Virus record (IMG/VR): IMGVR_UViG_3300047564_002805
Coordinates: 1-31,423 of that record
Length of the DNA stretch: 31,423 bases
Source: a virus
Reading direction: 5' to 3' (one strand)
Below the pieces are notes generated by a model, which worked only from the letters and a program-made list of their open reading frames with translations, was not told the DNA's origin and searched no databases. Positions 8,242 through 17,705 of this stretch are shown here, in pieces (within the stretch, counting starts at the first letter, position 1; each line of letters starts with the position of its first letter). The translations under genes and the position numbers were made by a program.

Positions 8242-8303
8242 CATTTAAATGACTATAAGTTACAAGGTCTGAGAGCATTTAAATGACTATAAGTTACAAG
8301 GTC
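8242..8303. repeat. 28-bp perfect tandem direct repeat
   Basis: Copies at 8242-8269 and 8276-8303, period 34. Each begins with the palindrome CATTTAAATG and ends AAGGTC. In each copy the palindrome's ATG opens a tiny frame MTISYKV (7 codons in copy one, 11 in copy two). It is immediately downstream of the plus promoter and next to an AT-rich tract. Confidence 0.9.
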
Positions 8304-9096: not shown

Positions 9097-9110
9097 TTGT
9101 GGAGATGTGG

Positions 9111-9121
9111 TATAATAAATA
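9111..9121 (+). promoter_or_regulatory. Late-type promoter for the HNH gene
   Basis: TATAAT and AATAAATA overlap here (9111-9116 and 9114-9121). No -35 is found at 17 bp, so a T4-type late promoter is the better reading. It implies that translation starts at ATG 9141 or 9144 rather than 9099. Confidence 0.55.
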
Positions 9122-9140
9122 CTACAAAGTTAGGTATTTA

Positions 9141-9638
9141 ATGATGAAAGAGCATCCTCTTTACAATAACATTTTAGTGTCGAAAGATGGGAGCATTTAT
9201 AGTACAGGAAAGAACTACAAATCACCTCGCAAACTAAAAGAAAGTGTGGATGAAAGAGGTTATGCAAGAGTGAGAATACAAGTCGGGTTGTATAATCAAA
9301 AGTTGAGAGCAGTTCATAGATTAGTAGCAGAAACTTACTTACCTAATCCACATAATCTATCAGATGTTCACCATAGAGATGATAACCCAACAAACAACAG
9401 TTTAGATAATTTAGAGTGGGTAACTCATAAACAAAACTGTGAACTTTCAAGAGACAACATTGGTAGAAACAAAGCGGCAGAATGGAAGATTTTACACATA
9501 GAAACCAATGAAACTTTTGTGATAAAAAACCTTGCTAAATGGTGCGAAGAAAATAACTTGAATAGGTCAAATCTTCATAAGACATTAACAAAGGTAAATC
9601 ATCACAAAGGTTACAAGATTTTAGAAAAACTTAGTTGA
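9141..9638 (+). CDS. Free-standing HNH homing-type endonuclease
   Basis: 165 residues from ATG 9141 (AGG seven bases upstream). The frame is open to 9099, but that start would precede the promoter. The N-terminal region (KDGSIYSTGK...AVHRLVAETYLP) is NUMOD4-like. The HNH core is HHRDDNPTNNSLDNLEW (residues 77-93), with the His pair and Asn typical of the HNH_3 type. The C-terminus resembles a NUMOD1-type DNA-binding helix (KNLAKWCEENNLNRSNL). It is the only gene opposed to its neighbours and overlaps the convergent 104-aa gene by 8 nt, as expected for an intruding mobile gene. It likely nicks or cuts allelic sites of related phages. Confidence 0.9.
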   Translation: MMKEHPLYNNILVSKDGSIYSTGKNYKSPRKLKESVDERGYARVRIQVGLYNQKLRAVHRLVAETYLPNPHNLSDVHHRDDNPTNNSLDNLEWVTHKQNCELSRDNIGRNKAAEWKILHIETNETFVIKNLAKWCEENNLNRSNLHKTLTKVNHHKGYKILEKLS

Positions 9639-13140: not shown

Positions 13141-13170
13141 ACTACTAGGACACTTTGAGCGTCCCCCCTT
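13141..13170 (-). promoter_or_regulatory. SD-hairpin element, copy 7 (ATG-fused type)
   Basis: Minus strand: TAAGGGGGG (TAA is the ligase-like gene's stop), GGAC-GCTCAAAGT-GTCC, TAGTAGT-ATG. One A fewer in the Shine-Dalgarno part than the others. Confidence 0.87.
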
Positions 13171-14065
13171 ACCAACTCTTTGCAAGATTGAAGTTAGCAC
13201 GGGAGAAACATTCACGATTTACCAACTTAAACATTCCAAACTCATTCGTCATAACGTATCCTTCAGCATCAATACGATTGTATCCGATATAAGCAGCAGG
13301 ACCATCATTGCGGCAGAGGAACAAGCAATCATCTTTGATAGACTTCACCAGCGACCACAAACGGATGAGGTTAGGGTCACAATCAAAGTCATTCACATTA
13401 TCTACAGTAATCTGCTCTCCTGCACGAATAAAATCATTCAATTTCTTGGTAATCTTTGCTGCTTCCTTGTTAGAAACAAACTCACACATCGTAGACATTT
13501 GGCGGGCAAACGCACAAACTTCTTTTACATCAGCGAACGATTCTTGCTGATGAACGATGTAAGCATCAGGTTTCACAAACTTGCAGTAATGTGTATCGGT
13601 GATGATGAACTTCATCGGATACGCTACTGCATCACGCAAATCATTCTCTGCGATGTAGACAGTATGAGGAGCAAGAATAATCTCCTCATTCACCACATCA
13701 GGAAACTTGTAGGTGATAGTATTTGGTTTGTACTCATCACTACCACCAAACCCGATAAAGTCTGCTTGAATGATAGCATTTACACGCGGCAGATAGTCAA
13801 AGCAAGCGTGAAGAATGTTTGCTACATTACCTTCGTGATTTGCATCAATATCTTGATGCGATTCGTTGATTTTGATTTTAACTTTATTGAAGACACTTTT
13901 GGTCCCCACGAAGAAGTTACCAGTCGCAGGATTGATACCAAAAACTACTGCAGGAGCGCCATCAATCTTTACAGACAGATCGCCAGCAGTTACAAACCAA
14001 TCCAGCACAGACAGATCGCCCGTGAGAATAGAATCTTCAGGATGTTGCAGGTGAGTGTTCTTCAT
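13169..14065 (-). CDS. Ligase-like covalent nucleotidyltransferase (298 aa)
   Basis: KIDGAPAVVFG at residues 33-43 fits nucleotidyltransferase motif I (KxDG, with Lys33 the would-be adenylated residue). IIQADFIGFGG (about 98-108) sits where motif III is expected, EGYVM (268-272) matches motif IV, and FKLVN (279-283, Lys280) matches motif V. The order and spacing fit the catalytic domain of ATP-dependent RNA/DNA ligases, with no OB-fold or tail domain. Similar proteins occur in T4-like phages as uncharacterised families. It is probably an RNA end-repair ligase or a related enzyme; substrate unknown. It lies next to the methyltransferase/nuclease operon but is separated from it by a terminator. 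ATG at 14065 is fused to element copy 8. Confidence 0.68.
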   Translation of the reverse strand: MKNTHLQHPEDSILTGDLSVLDWFVTAGDLSVKIDGAPAVVFGINPATGNFFVGTKSVFNKVKIKINESHQDIDANHEGNVANILHACFDYLPRVNAIIQADFIGFGGSDEYKPNTITYKFPDVVNEEIILAPHTVYIAENDLRDAVAYPMKFIITDTHYCKFVKPDAYIVHQQESFADVKEVCAFARQMSTMCEFVSNKEAAKITKKLNDFIRAGEQITVDNVNDFDCDPNLIRLWSLVKSIKDDCLFLCRNDGPAAYIGYNRIDAEGYVMTNEFGMFKLVNRECFSRANFNLAKSW

Positions 14066-14096
14066 ACTACTAGGACACTTTGGGCGTCCCCCCTTT
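14066..14096 (-). promoter_or_regulatory. SD-hairpin element, copy 8 (ATG-fused type)
   Basis: Minus strand: AAAGGGGGG, GGAC-GCCCAAAGT-GTCC, TAGTAGT-ATG. It starts only 8 bases after a terminator T-run, so no separate promoter fits between terminator and gene. Either the terminator leaks or the element itself supports initiation. Confidence 0.88.
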
Positions 14097-14104
14097 CATA
14101 AAAC

Positions 14105-14130
14105 AAAAAAAGGGAACTCATTGAGTTCCC
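14105..14130 (-). terminator. Rho-independent terminator of the nuclease/methyltransferase operon
   Basis: Minus-strand hairpin GGGAACTC/GAGTTCCC (8-bp stem, 3-nt loop) followed by seven Ts, 10 bp after the stop of the 84-aa gene. Confidence 0.88.
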
Positions 14131-14140
14131 ATGTACCACT

Positions 14141-14395
14141 TCAATTAGTGGCGTATTTGGAGCGGATTTGCTGATATTGATCGAGAACATAATCCATTGC
14201 GTTCTTCACATAAGGAAAAACAGTTTGAGTAACTTTACTCACATCTTCACGAAGTTTGTTGACTTCATACTGATGGATTTGCCAGCGAACTTTAATGTCT
14301 TGCAGATATTGCTGGCGAGTGATGAGAACCTCAGGAACTTTCACTTCGTTAGCAACAACTTCAACATTTGCAGTTTGCTTGCGAGCGCGAGGCAT
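14141..14395 (-). CDS. Basic helical hypothetical protein (84 aa)
   Basis: Start at ATG 14395 (MPRARKQTANVEVVANEVKV); the frame further upstream is read-through of element copy 9. The N-terminus is basic, followed by a long helical, coiled-coil-prone region (QYEVNKLREDVSKVTQTVF). Last gene of the nuclease-methyltransferase operon. It might be an accessory factor of that pair, but nothing in the sequence proves it. Confidence 0.76.
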   Translation of the reverse strand: MPRARKQTANVEVVANEVKVPEVLITRQQYLQDIKVRWQIHQYEVNKLREDVSKVTQTVFPYVKNAMDYVLDQYQQIRSKYATN

Positions 14396-14411
14396 AGATT
14401 GGATGCGTCTT

Positions 14412-14444
14412 ACACTACTAGGACACTTTGGGAGTCCCCCCTTT
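14412..14444 (-). promoter_or_regulatory. SD-hairpin element, copy 9 (leader type)
   Basis: Minus strand: TAAAGGGGGG (TAA is the methyltransferase stop), GGAC-TCCCAAAGT-GTCC, TAGTAGTGTAAG. The GTG-TAA after it forms a start-stop pair at the place where other copies have ATG. The real ATG is about 18 nt further. Confidence 0.82.
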
Positions 14445-15522
14445 AGTTCAACGCAGACAATAAAGGATTTTGATATTGCTTGAGAGAATCTGGAAGGTGC
14501 TTCCAAATAGTTTTCTGTATGATGTCGAATCGAAGATTAAATGCACCATTTGTAGACGCAAATGCTACATCAGACCAGTTAATTGATTGCATCACATTAT
14601 CAATCACATCTTTGTCTGCAAGTGCTACAATTCCATAACCTCTACGATGTGGTAGATTCTCAAAGTCATCATAGACTTTTACACTCTCTTCACCGAAACA
14701 CGTTGATGGCAAATAATAGTCACAAGAGTACAGATGTTGTTTGTTTCGTGTGCTTCCTGGTGTGCCACCATCAGAGAGAGAATAGAGTTTGATGATGTTA
14801 GTCAGATCAACAACTTCCTCCTCGATTTTGTAGTCCTTCGCCCAGATCTGAAAGACTACATTTACGGTCACAGTTTTGCCATCAGGATAGTGAAATGAAG
14901 AATCCACAACTTCAGTGTGAATCAGATTCATACCTTTCACTCTTGATTTACAACTACCTTTGCCGTTGCTATCAAACAACTGCGGTAGAATGAAGCATAC
15001 GAAATCAGAGAACTGTGCGGCATGATTGATGAACTTAAGGGCTAAATGTCCTCTGAGTCCAAATGGTGGATTGCCGATACAAATGTTCTTTTGAGTATCA
15101 GGTTTCCACCTTAAAAAGTCTTGTTTCTCTACACCATCACATTGAGGTTCGATGTCAACACCAACACGCTGATAGATGGGTAGAATGTTATAGAAACTAC
15201 CATCACCTGCTGATGGTTCAATAAAGGTGTATTCACGCAAATCTACACCAAGATCACCTAGAATCTTGAGAGTTTGATTGTAACAATACTCAGCAGTATT
15301 TGGATCAGTAAAGAACTGATCCTTTTGCTTTTCAGTAAAGTTAGAGTAAAGAACTGGCACATCTGCTAACCTACACAAATCAAAATAGTATTGTGGAGGA
15401 ACTTCTTTCTTCTCAATCCAACGGTTCACTGTACCTTTATGCAGGTACAGTTCTTGACACACAGTATCAATACCAAACTTTTGATAGATCGGAAGAAAGA
15501 AGTCGTAGATGTTTTTCATCAA
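14443..15522 (-). CDS. N6-adenine DNA methyltransferase with N-terminal HTH
   Basis: 359 residues. SAM-binding motif I is EPSAGDGSF (102-110), an acidic GVDIEP follows (121-126, motif II), and the catalytic NPPF is at 151-154 (motif IV of N6-adenine enzymes). The order I-IV with a C-terminal target-recognition region of about 150 residues fits a gamma-class (M.TaqI-like) enzyme. Residues 15-50 (FGIDTVCQELYLHKGTVNRW...) look like a helix-turn-helix, so the protein may also bind an operator. The start overlaps the nuclease stop (ATGA; ATG 15522 or 15519). It is inferred to protect phage DNA against the adjacent nuclease or the host's enzymes. The recognition sequence cannot be predicted. Confidence 0.88.
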   Translation of the reverse strand: MMKNIYDFFLPIYQKFGIDTVCQELYLHKGTVNRWIEKKEVPPQYYFDLCRLADVPVLYSNFTEKQKDQFFTDPNTAEYCYNQTLKILGDLGVDLREYTFIEPSAGDGSFYNILPIYQRVGVDIEPQCDGVEKQDFLRWKPDTQKNICIGNPPFGLRGHLALKFINHAAQFSDFVCFILPQLFDSNGKGSCKSRVKGMNLIHTEVVDSSFHYPDGKTVTVNVVFQIWAKDYKIEEEVVDLTNIIKLYSLSDGGTPGSTRNKQHLYSCDYYLPSTCFGEESVKVYDDFENLPHRRGYGIVALADKDVIDNVMQSINWSDVAFASTNGAFNLRFDIIQKTIWKHLPDSLKQYQNPLLSALN

Positions 15523-16121
15523 CCAAAGTGCTTAACAAGGTGAGAGACAACCCCAGCATCGTCAGGGTTATTTACGTCATAACAGAAAGTATAACCTGCT
15601 TTGATAGCATTTGCAACAGTAACACGGGAGAAATCAAACTTCCACTTATCCTCTTGAGATTCACGGAGAGTTGCTTTCTTTCCAAGAATAGGATCTTTCT
15701 CATTCTGAAAGAGTTTCTCCATGTTAGCAGGAGTCAGGACAGTAATGTAGATCTTATCATAGTCTACATCAACAAACGTCAATTTGTCCCAGACAGATTT
15801 AGCATAGATGTTCTCATGTTGCCAGTTGGCACTCTTAGCACACGAAAATGCAGTCTTTACTTCATTCTTGAGTTTCTTAATCAGATTGACGAGGATGTCA
15901 TAAGTGCCACCATCTTCAGGGCGGGTGTTACAATCACCATCCCACTTAGATTCAATCTTAGCAACCTCAGTAATGATACGGAAGAGGAACTTTTCACCCC
16001 AACGACCACGCTCATCATTAGTGATAAGAGTCAGAGGTTCAAATGGAGAACCTTTCCATTCTTGATTGCTATTTTCAACTGCTTCCTCAATAGTTTCATT
16101 GAGAATAGAAAGAACTGTCAT
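15519..16121 (-). CDS. PD-(D/E)XK nuclease-like protein, candidate type II restriction enzyme
   Basis: 200 residues. The nuclease pattern is Glu43 in the first helix (RWGEKFLF), Asp75 in GGTYDI, and Glu87-x-Lys89 in NEVKTA, spaced 12 residues after the Asp. This is the classic alpha-beta core D-(x)n-ExK of PD-(D/E)XK enzymes. Size and ATGA fusion to an adenine methyltransferase are typical of a type II restriction endonuclease, but motif-level assignment of this fold is never certain; it could be a DNA-repair or host-DNA-degrading nuclease. Preceded by element copy 10 and a 7-triplet GTG mini-frame that ends on its own start codon. Confidence 0.7.
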   Translation of the reverse strand: MTVLSILNETIEEAVENSNQEWKGSPFEPLTLITNDERGRWGEKFLFRIITEVAKIESKWDGDCNTRPEDGGTYDILVNLIKKLKNEVKTAFSCAKSANWQHENIYAKSVWDKLTFVDVDYDKIYITVLTPANMEKLFQNEKDPILGKKATLRESQEDKWKFDFSRVTVANAIKAGYTFCYDVNNPDDAGVVSHLVKHFG

Positions 16122-16134
16122 GATTTGTGTTGAT

Positions 16135-16167
16135 ACACTATTGGAACATTTTAGGCGTCCCCCCTTT
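16135..16167 (-). promoter_or_regulatory. SD-hairpin element, copy 10 (leader type, shifted stem)
   Basis: Minus strand: AAAGGGGGGAC, loop GCCTAAAAT, then GTTCC, AATAGTGTA. The 3' arm is changed (GTTCC), but pairing is kept by sliding into the G-run: GGGAC/GUUCC with one G-U. A GTG frame in the element ends in TGA overlapping the nuclease ATG. Confidence 0.78.
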
Positions 16168-16168
16168 G

Positions 16169-16342
16169 TTACAATGGGAGTTGTGCTACACTTTTACCCT
16201 TCTTGTGATCTGTGATGTACTTTCGTGCTGATGCCTCAGTCTTACAAAGTTTCTCAAGTTGTTGACCCTTGTGTATAATGAGATACTGTTTTCCATAAGG
16301 AATCGCAGCGTACTCATCTTTATACATTGTGAATCCTTCCAT
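16169..16342 (-). CDS. Small basic hypothetical protein (57 aa), first gene of the nuclease-methyltransferase operon
   Basis: Begins MEGFTMYKDEYAAIPYGKQY and continues ...KTEASARKYITDHKKGKSVA; basic, no HTH seen. It lies directly after the promoter/operator at 16380-16416 and before element copy 10 and the nuclease. Position is like that of controller genes of restriction systems, but the sequence does not look like a C-protein. Function unknown. Confidence 0.75.
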   Translation of the reverse strand: MEGFTMYKDEYAAIPYGKQYLIIHKGQQLEKLCKTEASARKYITDHKKGKSVAQLPL

Positions 16343-16379
16343 TTGTTATACTTTCCAAAAAATCGTTGATTTGGTTGCA

Positions 16380-16416
16380 GCAGACCTATCATAGCACGTC
16401 TGCAGTAGAAATGCAA
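16380..16416 (-). promoter_or_regulatory. Promoter with palindromic operator for the nuclease-methyltransferase operon
   Basis: Minus-strand TTGCAT (16411-16416), 17-bp spacer, TATGAT (16388-16393). A 6-bp inverted repeat GCAGAC/GTCTGC with 12-bp centre (arms 16380-16385 and 16398-16403) brackets the -10, the expected geometry for a dimeric repressor. The -35 overlaps the helicase terminator's T-run. Confidence 0.65.
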
Positions 16417-16440
16417 AAAAATCAGGGTTTGCACCCTGAT
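16414..16440 (-). terminator. Rho-independent terminator after the helicase gene
   Basis: Minus-strand hairpin ATCAGGGT/ACCCTGAT (8-bp stem, 4-nt loop) followed by seven Ts, about 24 bp after the helicase stop. Confidence 0.88.
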
Positions 16441-16463: not shown

Positions 16464-17705
16464 TCACCTGCGAACCACACTGATGGCAGGTTCCCCCTTC
16501 TGAAAAATAGTATCAACAACAGACTGAACTGCGCGAGCAGTGCTGATACCAACCTTAGAGTACACAGGCACACAAACCAGACCAAACGATTTGCTATACT
16601 GAGTGAGGTTGCCAGGTTCAATACGTCCATCGCGCATACCTTTCGCATCATCGTGATGCAGACGGATGCAACGTCCGATGGTCTGACTGATACCAATGAA
16701 GTCCATATTACGGAGGAAGAGTACCGCTTCCAGACCGCTGACGTTGATACCCTCAGCGAGGATGCTATGGTGTAGAACAACAAACTTTTTGTCGTTATCC
16801 TTACCCCAGGCAGATAGGGTGTCAAAGAATACCTCACGGTTCACTTTGCGACCATCAATCACAGCACCAGTCTTGGCAGTGATATACATCCAAGAGTAAC
16901 CGCGATTCTCTAGTTCGGAGCAGAAATCAGTTTCAGACACCAGAGCAACGATTTGCTTGGTTGCCTTAGAACAGATCAGGATCTTACCGACGCTGTTCTC
17001 ATCAATCGTTTCCAGCAGATTCTCAGCGTCCCGATCATAGTTGGTCTGCTTACCAGTTACCATCGGCAGTTGCTTGACGATAACTTTAGGAGGCACAATG
17101 TATCCACCTTCAACTAGCTCAGGAGCAGGAACTTTGCAGATCACTTGACCGTAGACTGCAGAATCATTCATTCCTGGTTTACCCACAGCAAGCGAATGTT
17201 TGGGGGTAGCAGTGAAGAAGTACGCACGTTTTGCGTTAGCAGAGAAGTGCTCTGTAGCAGGGAAAAAGTGACGCTGAACGCTGTTATGTGCTTCGTCAAA
17301 GTAGATCGTATCCACATCAATCTCTGCGACTTGAAGACGCGACAGAGAGTTGTAGGTGGTTACAATCAGGCGATGATTGTCGGCATTAGCATTAACCCAG
17401 TTGTAAATCTCACGCGGACGAGTAGAAGATTCGTGATGCGTCTCACCACTATGAACGTGGAAGACTTTAGCGTTAGTGATAAACTCCAGAAACTCAGCAG
17501 ACAGTTGCTCTGCAAGCAGAATACGCGGAGCGACTACAACAATGGTCTGAGGAGTTTCAGACTGGAACTCACGCAGAGCATCATAGATCATCTTGAGAGT
17601 CTTTCCACCACCAGTAGGAACAATGATCTGACCTTTGTTATGCTGTTGCATAGCAGCAACACCACGTTCCTGATGAGGGCGAAGTTGAATGTTCATAAGT
17701 TGCAT
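16464..17705 (-). CDS. SF2 DEAH-box helicase
   Basis: 413 residues with all core SF2 motifs: PTGGGKT (30-36, Walker A), DEAH (137-140), TAT (165-167, motif III), LAEGINV (316-322, motif V) and QTIGRCIRL (341-349, motif VI). An N-terminal LRPHQ (8-12) precedes the core like a Q-motif region. It is a compact two-RecA-domain enzyme without obvious accessory domains. T4-like cyanophages carry such a helicase for recombination and replication; UvsW-like activity is possible. ATG 17705 (MQLMN) or ATG 17696. Element copy 11 precedes it by 6 nt and a terminator follows. Confidence 0.93.
   Translation of the reverse strand: MQLMNIQLRPHQERGVAAMQQHNKGQIIVPTGGGKTLKMIYDALREFQSETPQTIVVVAPRILLAEQLSAEFLEFITNAKVFHVHSGETHHESSTRPREIYNWVNANADNHRLIVTTYNSLSRLQVAEIDVDTIYFDEAHNSVQRHFFPATEHFSANAKRAYFFTATPKHSLAVGKPGMNDSAVYGQVICKVPAPELVEGGYIVPPKVIVKQLPMVTGKQTNYDRDAENLLETIDENSVGKILICSKATKQIVALVSETDFCSELENRGYSWMYITAKTGAVIDGRKVNREVFFDTLSAWGKDNDKKFVVLHHSILAEGINVSGLEAVLFLRNMDFIGISQTIGRCIRLHHDDAKGMRDGRIEPGNLTQYSKSFGLVCVPVYSKVGISTARAVQSVVDTIFQKGEPAISVVRR

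Follow-up and report, generated by a model that had tools for sequence, protein, structure and literature searches.

A predicted restriction-modification pair, Type II-like and of cellular ancestry, in a lytic T4-like cyanophage

Why would a lytic phage carry a gene for a DNA-cutting enzyme directly beside one for a DNA-marking enzyme, and what would the two be used for? This question is raised by a viral DNA of 31,423 nucleotides (nt) (IMG/VR record IMGVR_UViG_3300047564_002805, positions 1 to 31,423), the whole stretch analyzed here and called the window below. On its minus strand, a restriction-endonuclease-like protein of 200 amino acids (15519..16121) is followed by a DNA methyltransferase (14443..15519). 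Considering the sequence comparisons presented below, we estimate a probability of about 85% that these two genes form a Type II-like restriction-modification (R-M) pair of cellular ancestry in a lytic T4-like cyanophage. One paper describes phages as almost devoid of complete R-M systems (PMC10734518). A previous sequence-only reading of the locus considered it a candidate for an undescribed system, which was too strong, as the pair more probably corresponds to a Type II R-M system with cellular ancestors, found in viruses that seldom have such systems in full.

Does the first protein look like a nuclease? The residues Glu43, Asp75 and Glu87-x-Lys89, which had been picked out as a nuclease pattern, turned out to be invariant across 28 viral homologues found in IMG/VR, with identities down to 29%. 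When cellular homologues were added to the alignment, Asp75, Glu87, Lys89, Gln101 and Lys161 were still invariant, while Glu43 was replaced by Gln in some of them. Judging from these alignments, the conservation of the catalytic pattern is far above chance. An AlphaFold model, using the 28 homologue sequences as input, reached a predicted local distance difference test (pLDDT) score of 87.1 and placed Glu43 in a helix (residues 35-53), Asp75 in a strand (74-78), and Glu87 and Lys89 in another strand (84-93). This arrangement is that of a PD-(D/E)XK enzyme, with an alpha-beta core, the D...(D/E)-x-K residues on adjacent strands and the Glu on the preceding helix. The top matches found by Foldseek in the PDB were PD-(D/E)XK enzymes, namely the restriction enzymes NhoI, Eco15I and ThaI, together with MepB and the PD-(D/E)XK homing enzyme I-Ssp6803I, with EcoRV lower in the list. 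The structure prediction, which had been proposed as a check of the nuclease assignment, was therefore passed.

The second protein, of 358-359 amino acids, is on the basis of its motifs and profile matches predicted with confidence to be a gamma-class (TaqI-like) N6-adenine methyltransferase. It contains a helix-turn-helix (HTH)-like part at residues 1-64, motif I EPSAGDGSF (101-109) and motif IV NPPF (150-153), the two motifs being invariant or nearly so among its homologues. Motif I before NPPF is the order typical of gamma-class N6-adenine methyltransferases. In agreement with the earlier assignment, which was made from these same motifs, the protein matched the PADLOC Type II methyltransferase model PDLC03280 (MTase_II) at 2.7e-55 over residues 66-349, and M.TaqI was its only match in PDB profile searches (E 3e-4). 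In addition, HTH models weakly matched a cellular homologue.

Are the two genes constant partners? The methyltransferase was present in 49 IMG/VR contigs, three of which begin inside or just before the gene; in all of the remaining 46, which retain upstream DNA, the nuclease is the gene immediately upstream (46/46), with an overlap of up to 8 nt or a gap within 8 nt where the junction was measured. Some of these contigs are near-identical, and the independent lineages are thus fewer than 46. The adjacency in homologues, which the sequence-only reading had named as a check, thus holds and, together with the fold, supports its claim of a PD-(D/E)XK-type nuclease linked to an N6-adenine methyltransferase in a T4-like myovirus. 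The neighbors of the pair vary, being unrelated genes in 2 contigs (L008 and L031), and other loci lie on either side of uvsW; the pair thus moves as a unit. For both genes, the ratio of nonsynonymous to synonymous substitution rates (dN/dS) was 0.06-0.13 in six virus pairs, a sign of purifying selection indicating that both proteins are maintained. These data bear on the idea that the methyltransferase is an orphan, serving anti-restriction or regulation, and that the nuclease gene is a remnant in decay. The isolate phages KIL1 and phAPEC8 indeed have related methyltransferases (27-30% identity) that stand alone; however, none of the 28 nucleases is disrupted or has lost a catalytic residue, and considering also the low dN/dS values we regard this explanation as the least likely of all.

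We then asked where the pair comes from. A genome scan with the methyltransferase profile retrieved 46 cellular loci belonging to Rickettsiales, Bacilli, Mollicutes, Patescibacteria, Gammaproteobacteria and others, the nearest being 41-49% identical with the HTH part included. No cyanobacterial genome was among these 46 loci in this one scan, which relied on two short patterns and may have overlooked copies in hosts. At about 25 of the cellular loci, a homologue of the phage nuclease adjoins the methyltransferase, nearly always directly downstream. These partner nucleases are only ~15-25% identical to the window nuclease and match the PADLOC REase_II models PDLC03498 / PDLC03515, the one of locus L118 over its full length at 5e-44. 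The cellular methyltransferase-nuclease (M-R) pairs and their PADLOC matches suggest that the phage pair belongs to a Type II R-M lineage and is very probably a true system of this type. Homology would therefore tie the phage nuclease to known Type II restriction enzymes via cellular intermediates only. The window nuclease itself matched neither the PADLOC REase_II models directly nor any Pfam or NCBIfam family, with a weak NOV_C match appearing in 13 of the 28 homologues in the latter two collections, and GTDB genomes scanned with the nuclease pattern gave nothing. The viral methyltransferases form one clade (Shimodaira-Hasegawa-like approximate likelihood ratio test, SH-aLRT, 99), and the nuclease comes first in all viral pairs whereas the methyltransferase comes first in the cellular tandem pairs. 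The simplest reading of these results is a single order change near the base of the viral branch.

Several observations weigh against a Type II-like R-M pair. The Foldseek TM-scores (template modeling scores) of the nuclease are moderate, 0.35-0.5, supporting the fold but not a close relative, and PDB profile searches with the nuclease matched no restriction enzyme. Their sole match, Bicaudal C (E 0.003), covers an 'RGxxGE' segment and was treated as chance. One 8.9-kb contig (L004) contains the nuclease and no methyltransferase in 6.8 kb, its start lying only 178 nt before the nuclease. Host DNA as a possible victim rests only on the missing cyanobacterial relatives in one pattern scan. Moreover, the structures of NhoI and of Eco15I (N-terminal domain) are complexes with methylated DNA targets and, as both are among the top Foldseek matches, the phage nuclease could be a similar cutter of modified DNA, the methyltransferase having another purpose. 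This seems highly improbable to us, considering that the TM-scores are low, that the ordinary restriction enzymes ThaI and EcoRV appear in the same list, and that a methylation-dependent cutter, if permanently paired with a methyltransferase, would put the genome encoding it at risk unless the two enzymes had different sites.

Have the two genes of this predicted R-M pair shared a single history? The window methyltransferase groups with those of L038, L040, L042 and L045 (84-86% identity), whose nucleases are only ~43-47% identical to the one of the window. The window nuclease, on the contrary, groups with those of L061, L067, L005 and L053 (71-83%), whose methyltransferases are only ~65-68% identical. 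The nuclease and methyltransferase trees each reject the grouping of the other (approximately unbiased, AU, test, p 3e-6 and 2e-61), and DNA similarity along the locus switches near both ends of the nuclease gene. Taken from trees and similarity together, these results indicate that the window nuclease came in by exchange while the methyltransferase beside it stayed in place. In an R-M system, the mark set by one methyltransferase lineage would have to stop both nuclease types, and the diverged nuclease alleles should therefore, presumably, have a recognition site in common. A nuclease gene that moved between lineages independently of its neighbors could also be a homing or selfish endonuclease lying beside the methyltransferase rather than a restriction enzyme, and the presence of I-Ssp6803I among the fold matches goes in the same direction. 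However, homing enzymes need no methyltransferase, while this nuclease is constantly coupled to one methyltransferase family in viruses and cells and its cellular homologues match Type II restriction-enzyme models; we consider a homing function very unlikely.

What would a Type II-like R-M pair do during infection? Both enzymes would be made from one coupled message, at an early or middle stage of infection, and the methyltransferase would add N6-methyladenine at a specific site as the phage DNA replicates. Virion DNA would thus carry the mark and be protected on entering the next cell, while the nuclease would cut the same site when unmethylated, either in host DNA, in co-infecting phages without the pair, or in both. 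Here we infer the enzymatic activity, the shared site, the timing and the identity of the victim DNA. As a lytic phage needs no nuclease delay to save its host, and as its own DNA would arrive marked, the nuclease-first order should be tolerable. A more specific proposal, whose chances we place just short of even, is that this virus-specific nuclease-first Type II R-M branch serves to attack both host and rival phage DNA, with the order reversed since phage DNA arrives methylated, and with an arms race-like exchange of nuclease alleles while the methyltransferase stays the same.

Considering the two victims separately, the pair might mainly degrade host DNA, providing nucleotide recycling and host shut-off in a chlorovirus-like manner, while the methyltransferase would keep phage DNA from being cut. 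The restriction enzymes of chloroviruses are believed to break down the chromatin of the host at an early stage (PMC7019647), the nuclease-first order would favor early cutting, and the absence of cyanobacterial genomes among the 46 cellular loci suggests that hosts may be unprotected. We are nevertheless rather doubtful about this use, as a scan by two short patterns could miss host copies, a methyltransferase made simultaneously would methylate host DNA too, and marseillevirus, which has a comparable pair, leaves host DNA undegraded (PMC7253447). Alternatively, the pair might mainly exclude co-infecting phages that lack it, as was proposed for the marseillevirus R-M (PMC7253447). Its distribution is patchy, as a sequence search with the nuclease across 50,697 phage records gave nothing even at E 10 and no isolate phage in this collection carries the nuclease, and nuclease alleles have been exchanged between phages. 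Patchiness would equally fit drift or host-linked selection, and the exclusion of rivals is for us a real but tentative possibility. Both host-DNA use and rival-virus use are compatible with the present data.

How is the pair embedded and controlled? Transcription on the minus strand runs from a gene of 57 amino acids (16169-16342) to the nuclease, the methyltransferase and a gene of 84 amino acids (14141..14395, minus strand), the four being flanked by two intrinsic terminators on the same strand. The one ahead of the operon (16421..16440) consists of ATCAGGG..CCCTGAT (ATCAGGGTGCAAACCCTGAT) and the one behind it (14112..14130) of GGGAACTC..GAGTTCCC, each followed by a T run, and terminators in the scan exceed chance (6 found, 1.6 expected in shuffles). 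A candidate sigma70-like promoter lies at 16388..16417 (minus strand), with a -10 TATGAT at 16393-16388 preceded by TG, and the palindrome GCAGAC-N12-GTCTGC (16380-16403) encloses this -10; the promoter scan overall is at chance level, with 7 found and 6.2 expected. All the parts listed by the sequence-only reading are thus present on the minus strand. The ATGA coupling that it described has to be corrected, as the stop codon of the nuclease shares 1 nt with the start codon of the methyltransferase (TGATG) if the conserved ATG at 15519 is used (the other possible start being TTG at 15522). As for its complete R-M operon, the nuclease and methyltransferase hold as a conserved unit, while the small genes do not hold as members. 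The 57-amino acid gene is a neighbor and not a constant partner, being absent beside some pairs and 3.6 kb from the pair in L063, and relatives of its protein occur in isolate cyanophages where the nuclease was not found; the timing control attributed to it is not supported. The 84-amino acid gene is no constant partner either, missing or distant in several loci with the pair. Not being constantly linked, the former was rejected as a C-protein and the latter as a dedicated controller. The promoter palindrome was also rejected as an operator, as it is not kept in the closest relatives (L011/L013).

In the window and its near relatives, the nuclease is preceded by a repeated intergenic element in the version specific to each phage, and in the groups of L003 and L060 a different repeated element lies ahead of it. 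The pair therefore seems wired into the general expression program of each phage and not under a private R-M controller. The copy at 16135..16164 (minus strand), made of the GGGGGGACG block and an AAA.TGT... half, closely precedes the nuclease gene and is a candidate promoter/operator of the pair. Another copy (14412..14441, minus strand) is found immediately 3' of the methyltransferase stop codon.

The element has two parts and lies between genes, often directly after a stop codon and just ahead of the next start. In the window, 13 minus-strand copies were found as 30-nt matches (start coordinates 7368, 7619, 9969, 10291, 10916, 11694, 13139, 14064, 14412, 16135, 17709, 19065 and 21695), and it is also present in L002, L011, L015, L129, L132 (S-SM2), L147, L157, L167, L172, L183 and L188. 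Its 3' half, AAAGTGTCCyAGTAGTAT, is common to different phages. The 5' block is phage-specific and nearly uniform within one phage, being GGGGGGACG in the window, GGGGGGTCG in S-SM2, and CTGGGGCCTTG, TGGGCCCTG, AATAGCTCACC, AGTTACTCACC and TTGGATCCT in other phages. Rfam gave no match for this element, which has the look of a promoter or activator box whose copies undergo concerted evolution, perhaps tied to a phage-specific regulator. The other element, TATATT(A/G)AAAGAGTCAA, stands before the nuclease in L003, L005, L006, L060 and L062, and in L003 and L060 it is also ahead of other genes.

The window covers part of a T4-like cyanophage genome and encodes baseplate wedge families, the same two genes being gp6 and gp25 in S-SM2. 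Its closest isolates at the DNA level are Synechococcus myoviruses such as S-SM2 (~70%). Around the pair, it encodes a UvsW-type helicase (16464-17705) and a DUF6267 protein (13169-14065), and Rfam and transfer RNA scans of the window gave no match. We also found an HNH endonuclease gene on the plus strand, opposite to most genes (9099-9638; phrog_59, 2.6e-28), which is likely a mobile endonuclease, and two perfect 28-nt copies of CATTTAAATGACTATAAGTTACAAGGTC at 8242-8303 whose starts are 34 nt apart. Two other loci with the pair have, a few genes farther downstream, another and distinct gene for a DNA methyltransferase, with a TSPPYYGLRDYG motif (5219-5476 in L031 and 5962-7080 in L033).

How does this pair compare with known systems? 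In the related isolate S-SM2 (L132), SSM2_066 (15720-16247) is annotated as 'restriction enzyme type II R/M system 1' near a uvsW-like helicase (13166-14365). It was rejected as a homologue, having no detectable homology with the window nuclease, and its neighbor SSM2_067 is unrelated to the methyltransferase; an unrelated restriction enzyme near the same helicase suggests that the uvsW neighborhood may be a hotspot of nuclease genes. The lone adenine methyltransferases of Pseudomonas phage KIL1, phAPEC8 and rV5-like phages have a related catalytic domain (27-30% identity) but match without the HTH-like N-terminus, and no linked nuclease is among the annotated neighbors in KIL1 and phAPEC8. 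The cellular M-R pairs (L085, L086, L087, L090, L093, L094, L105 and others) share with the window the same two families, the HTH-like methyltransferase N-terminus and the adjacency, and differ in their methyltransferase-first order and their diverged nucleases. Among PADLOC families, PDLC03280 is matched by the window methyltransferase, whereas PDLC03498 / PDLC03515 are matched by the cellular partner nucleases and not by the phage one.

Among viruses, the temperate phage NrS-3 has, as the window does, an adjacent Type II nuclease and N6-adenine methyltransferase (R.Nph3I / M.Nph3I; PMC10734518). The likeness is one of description; NrS-3 is temperate, its nuclease is annotated as BglII-like and its activity is proven, while the window pair is known from sequence. 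Chlorovirus and marseillevirus R-M systems (PMC7019647, PMC7253447) also consist of virus-encoded, prokaryotic-type nuclease and methyltransferase neighbors. They differ in belonging to eukaryotic viruses, in using other enzymes, such as the GATC-type CviAI, and in that their function was studied; in marseillevirus, transcription of the nuclease precedes that of the methyltransferase, and an attack on rival viruses was proposed (PMC7253447). If active, the window pair would mean that lytic phages turn a bacterial immune system to offensive use. It suggests a way, open to testing, in which cyanophages might cut the DNA of their hosts yet spare their own, and its nuclease-only allele swaps are a natural experiment on whether restriction enzymes that have diverged still recognize one site. 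Viral R-M was already known; with respect to the openly accessible literature, what is new is a virus-specific, order-reversed Type II lineage in T4-like cyanophages and some other environmental phages.

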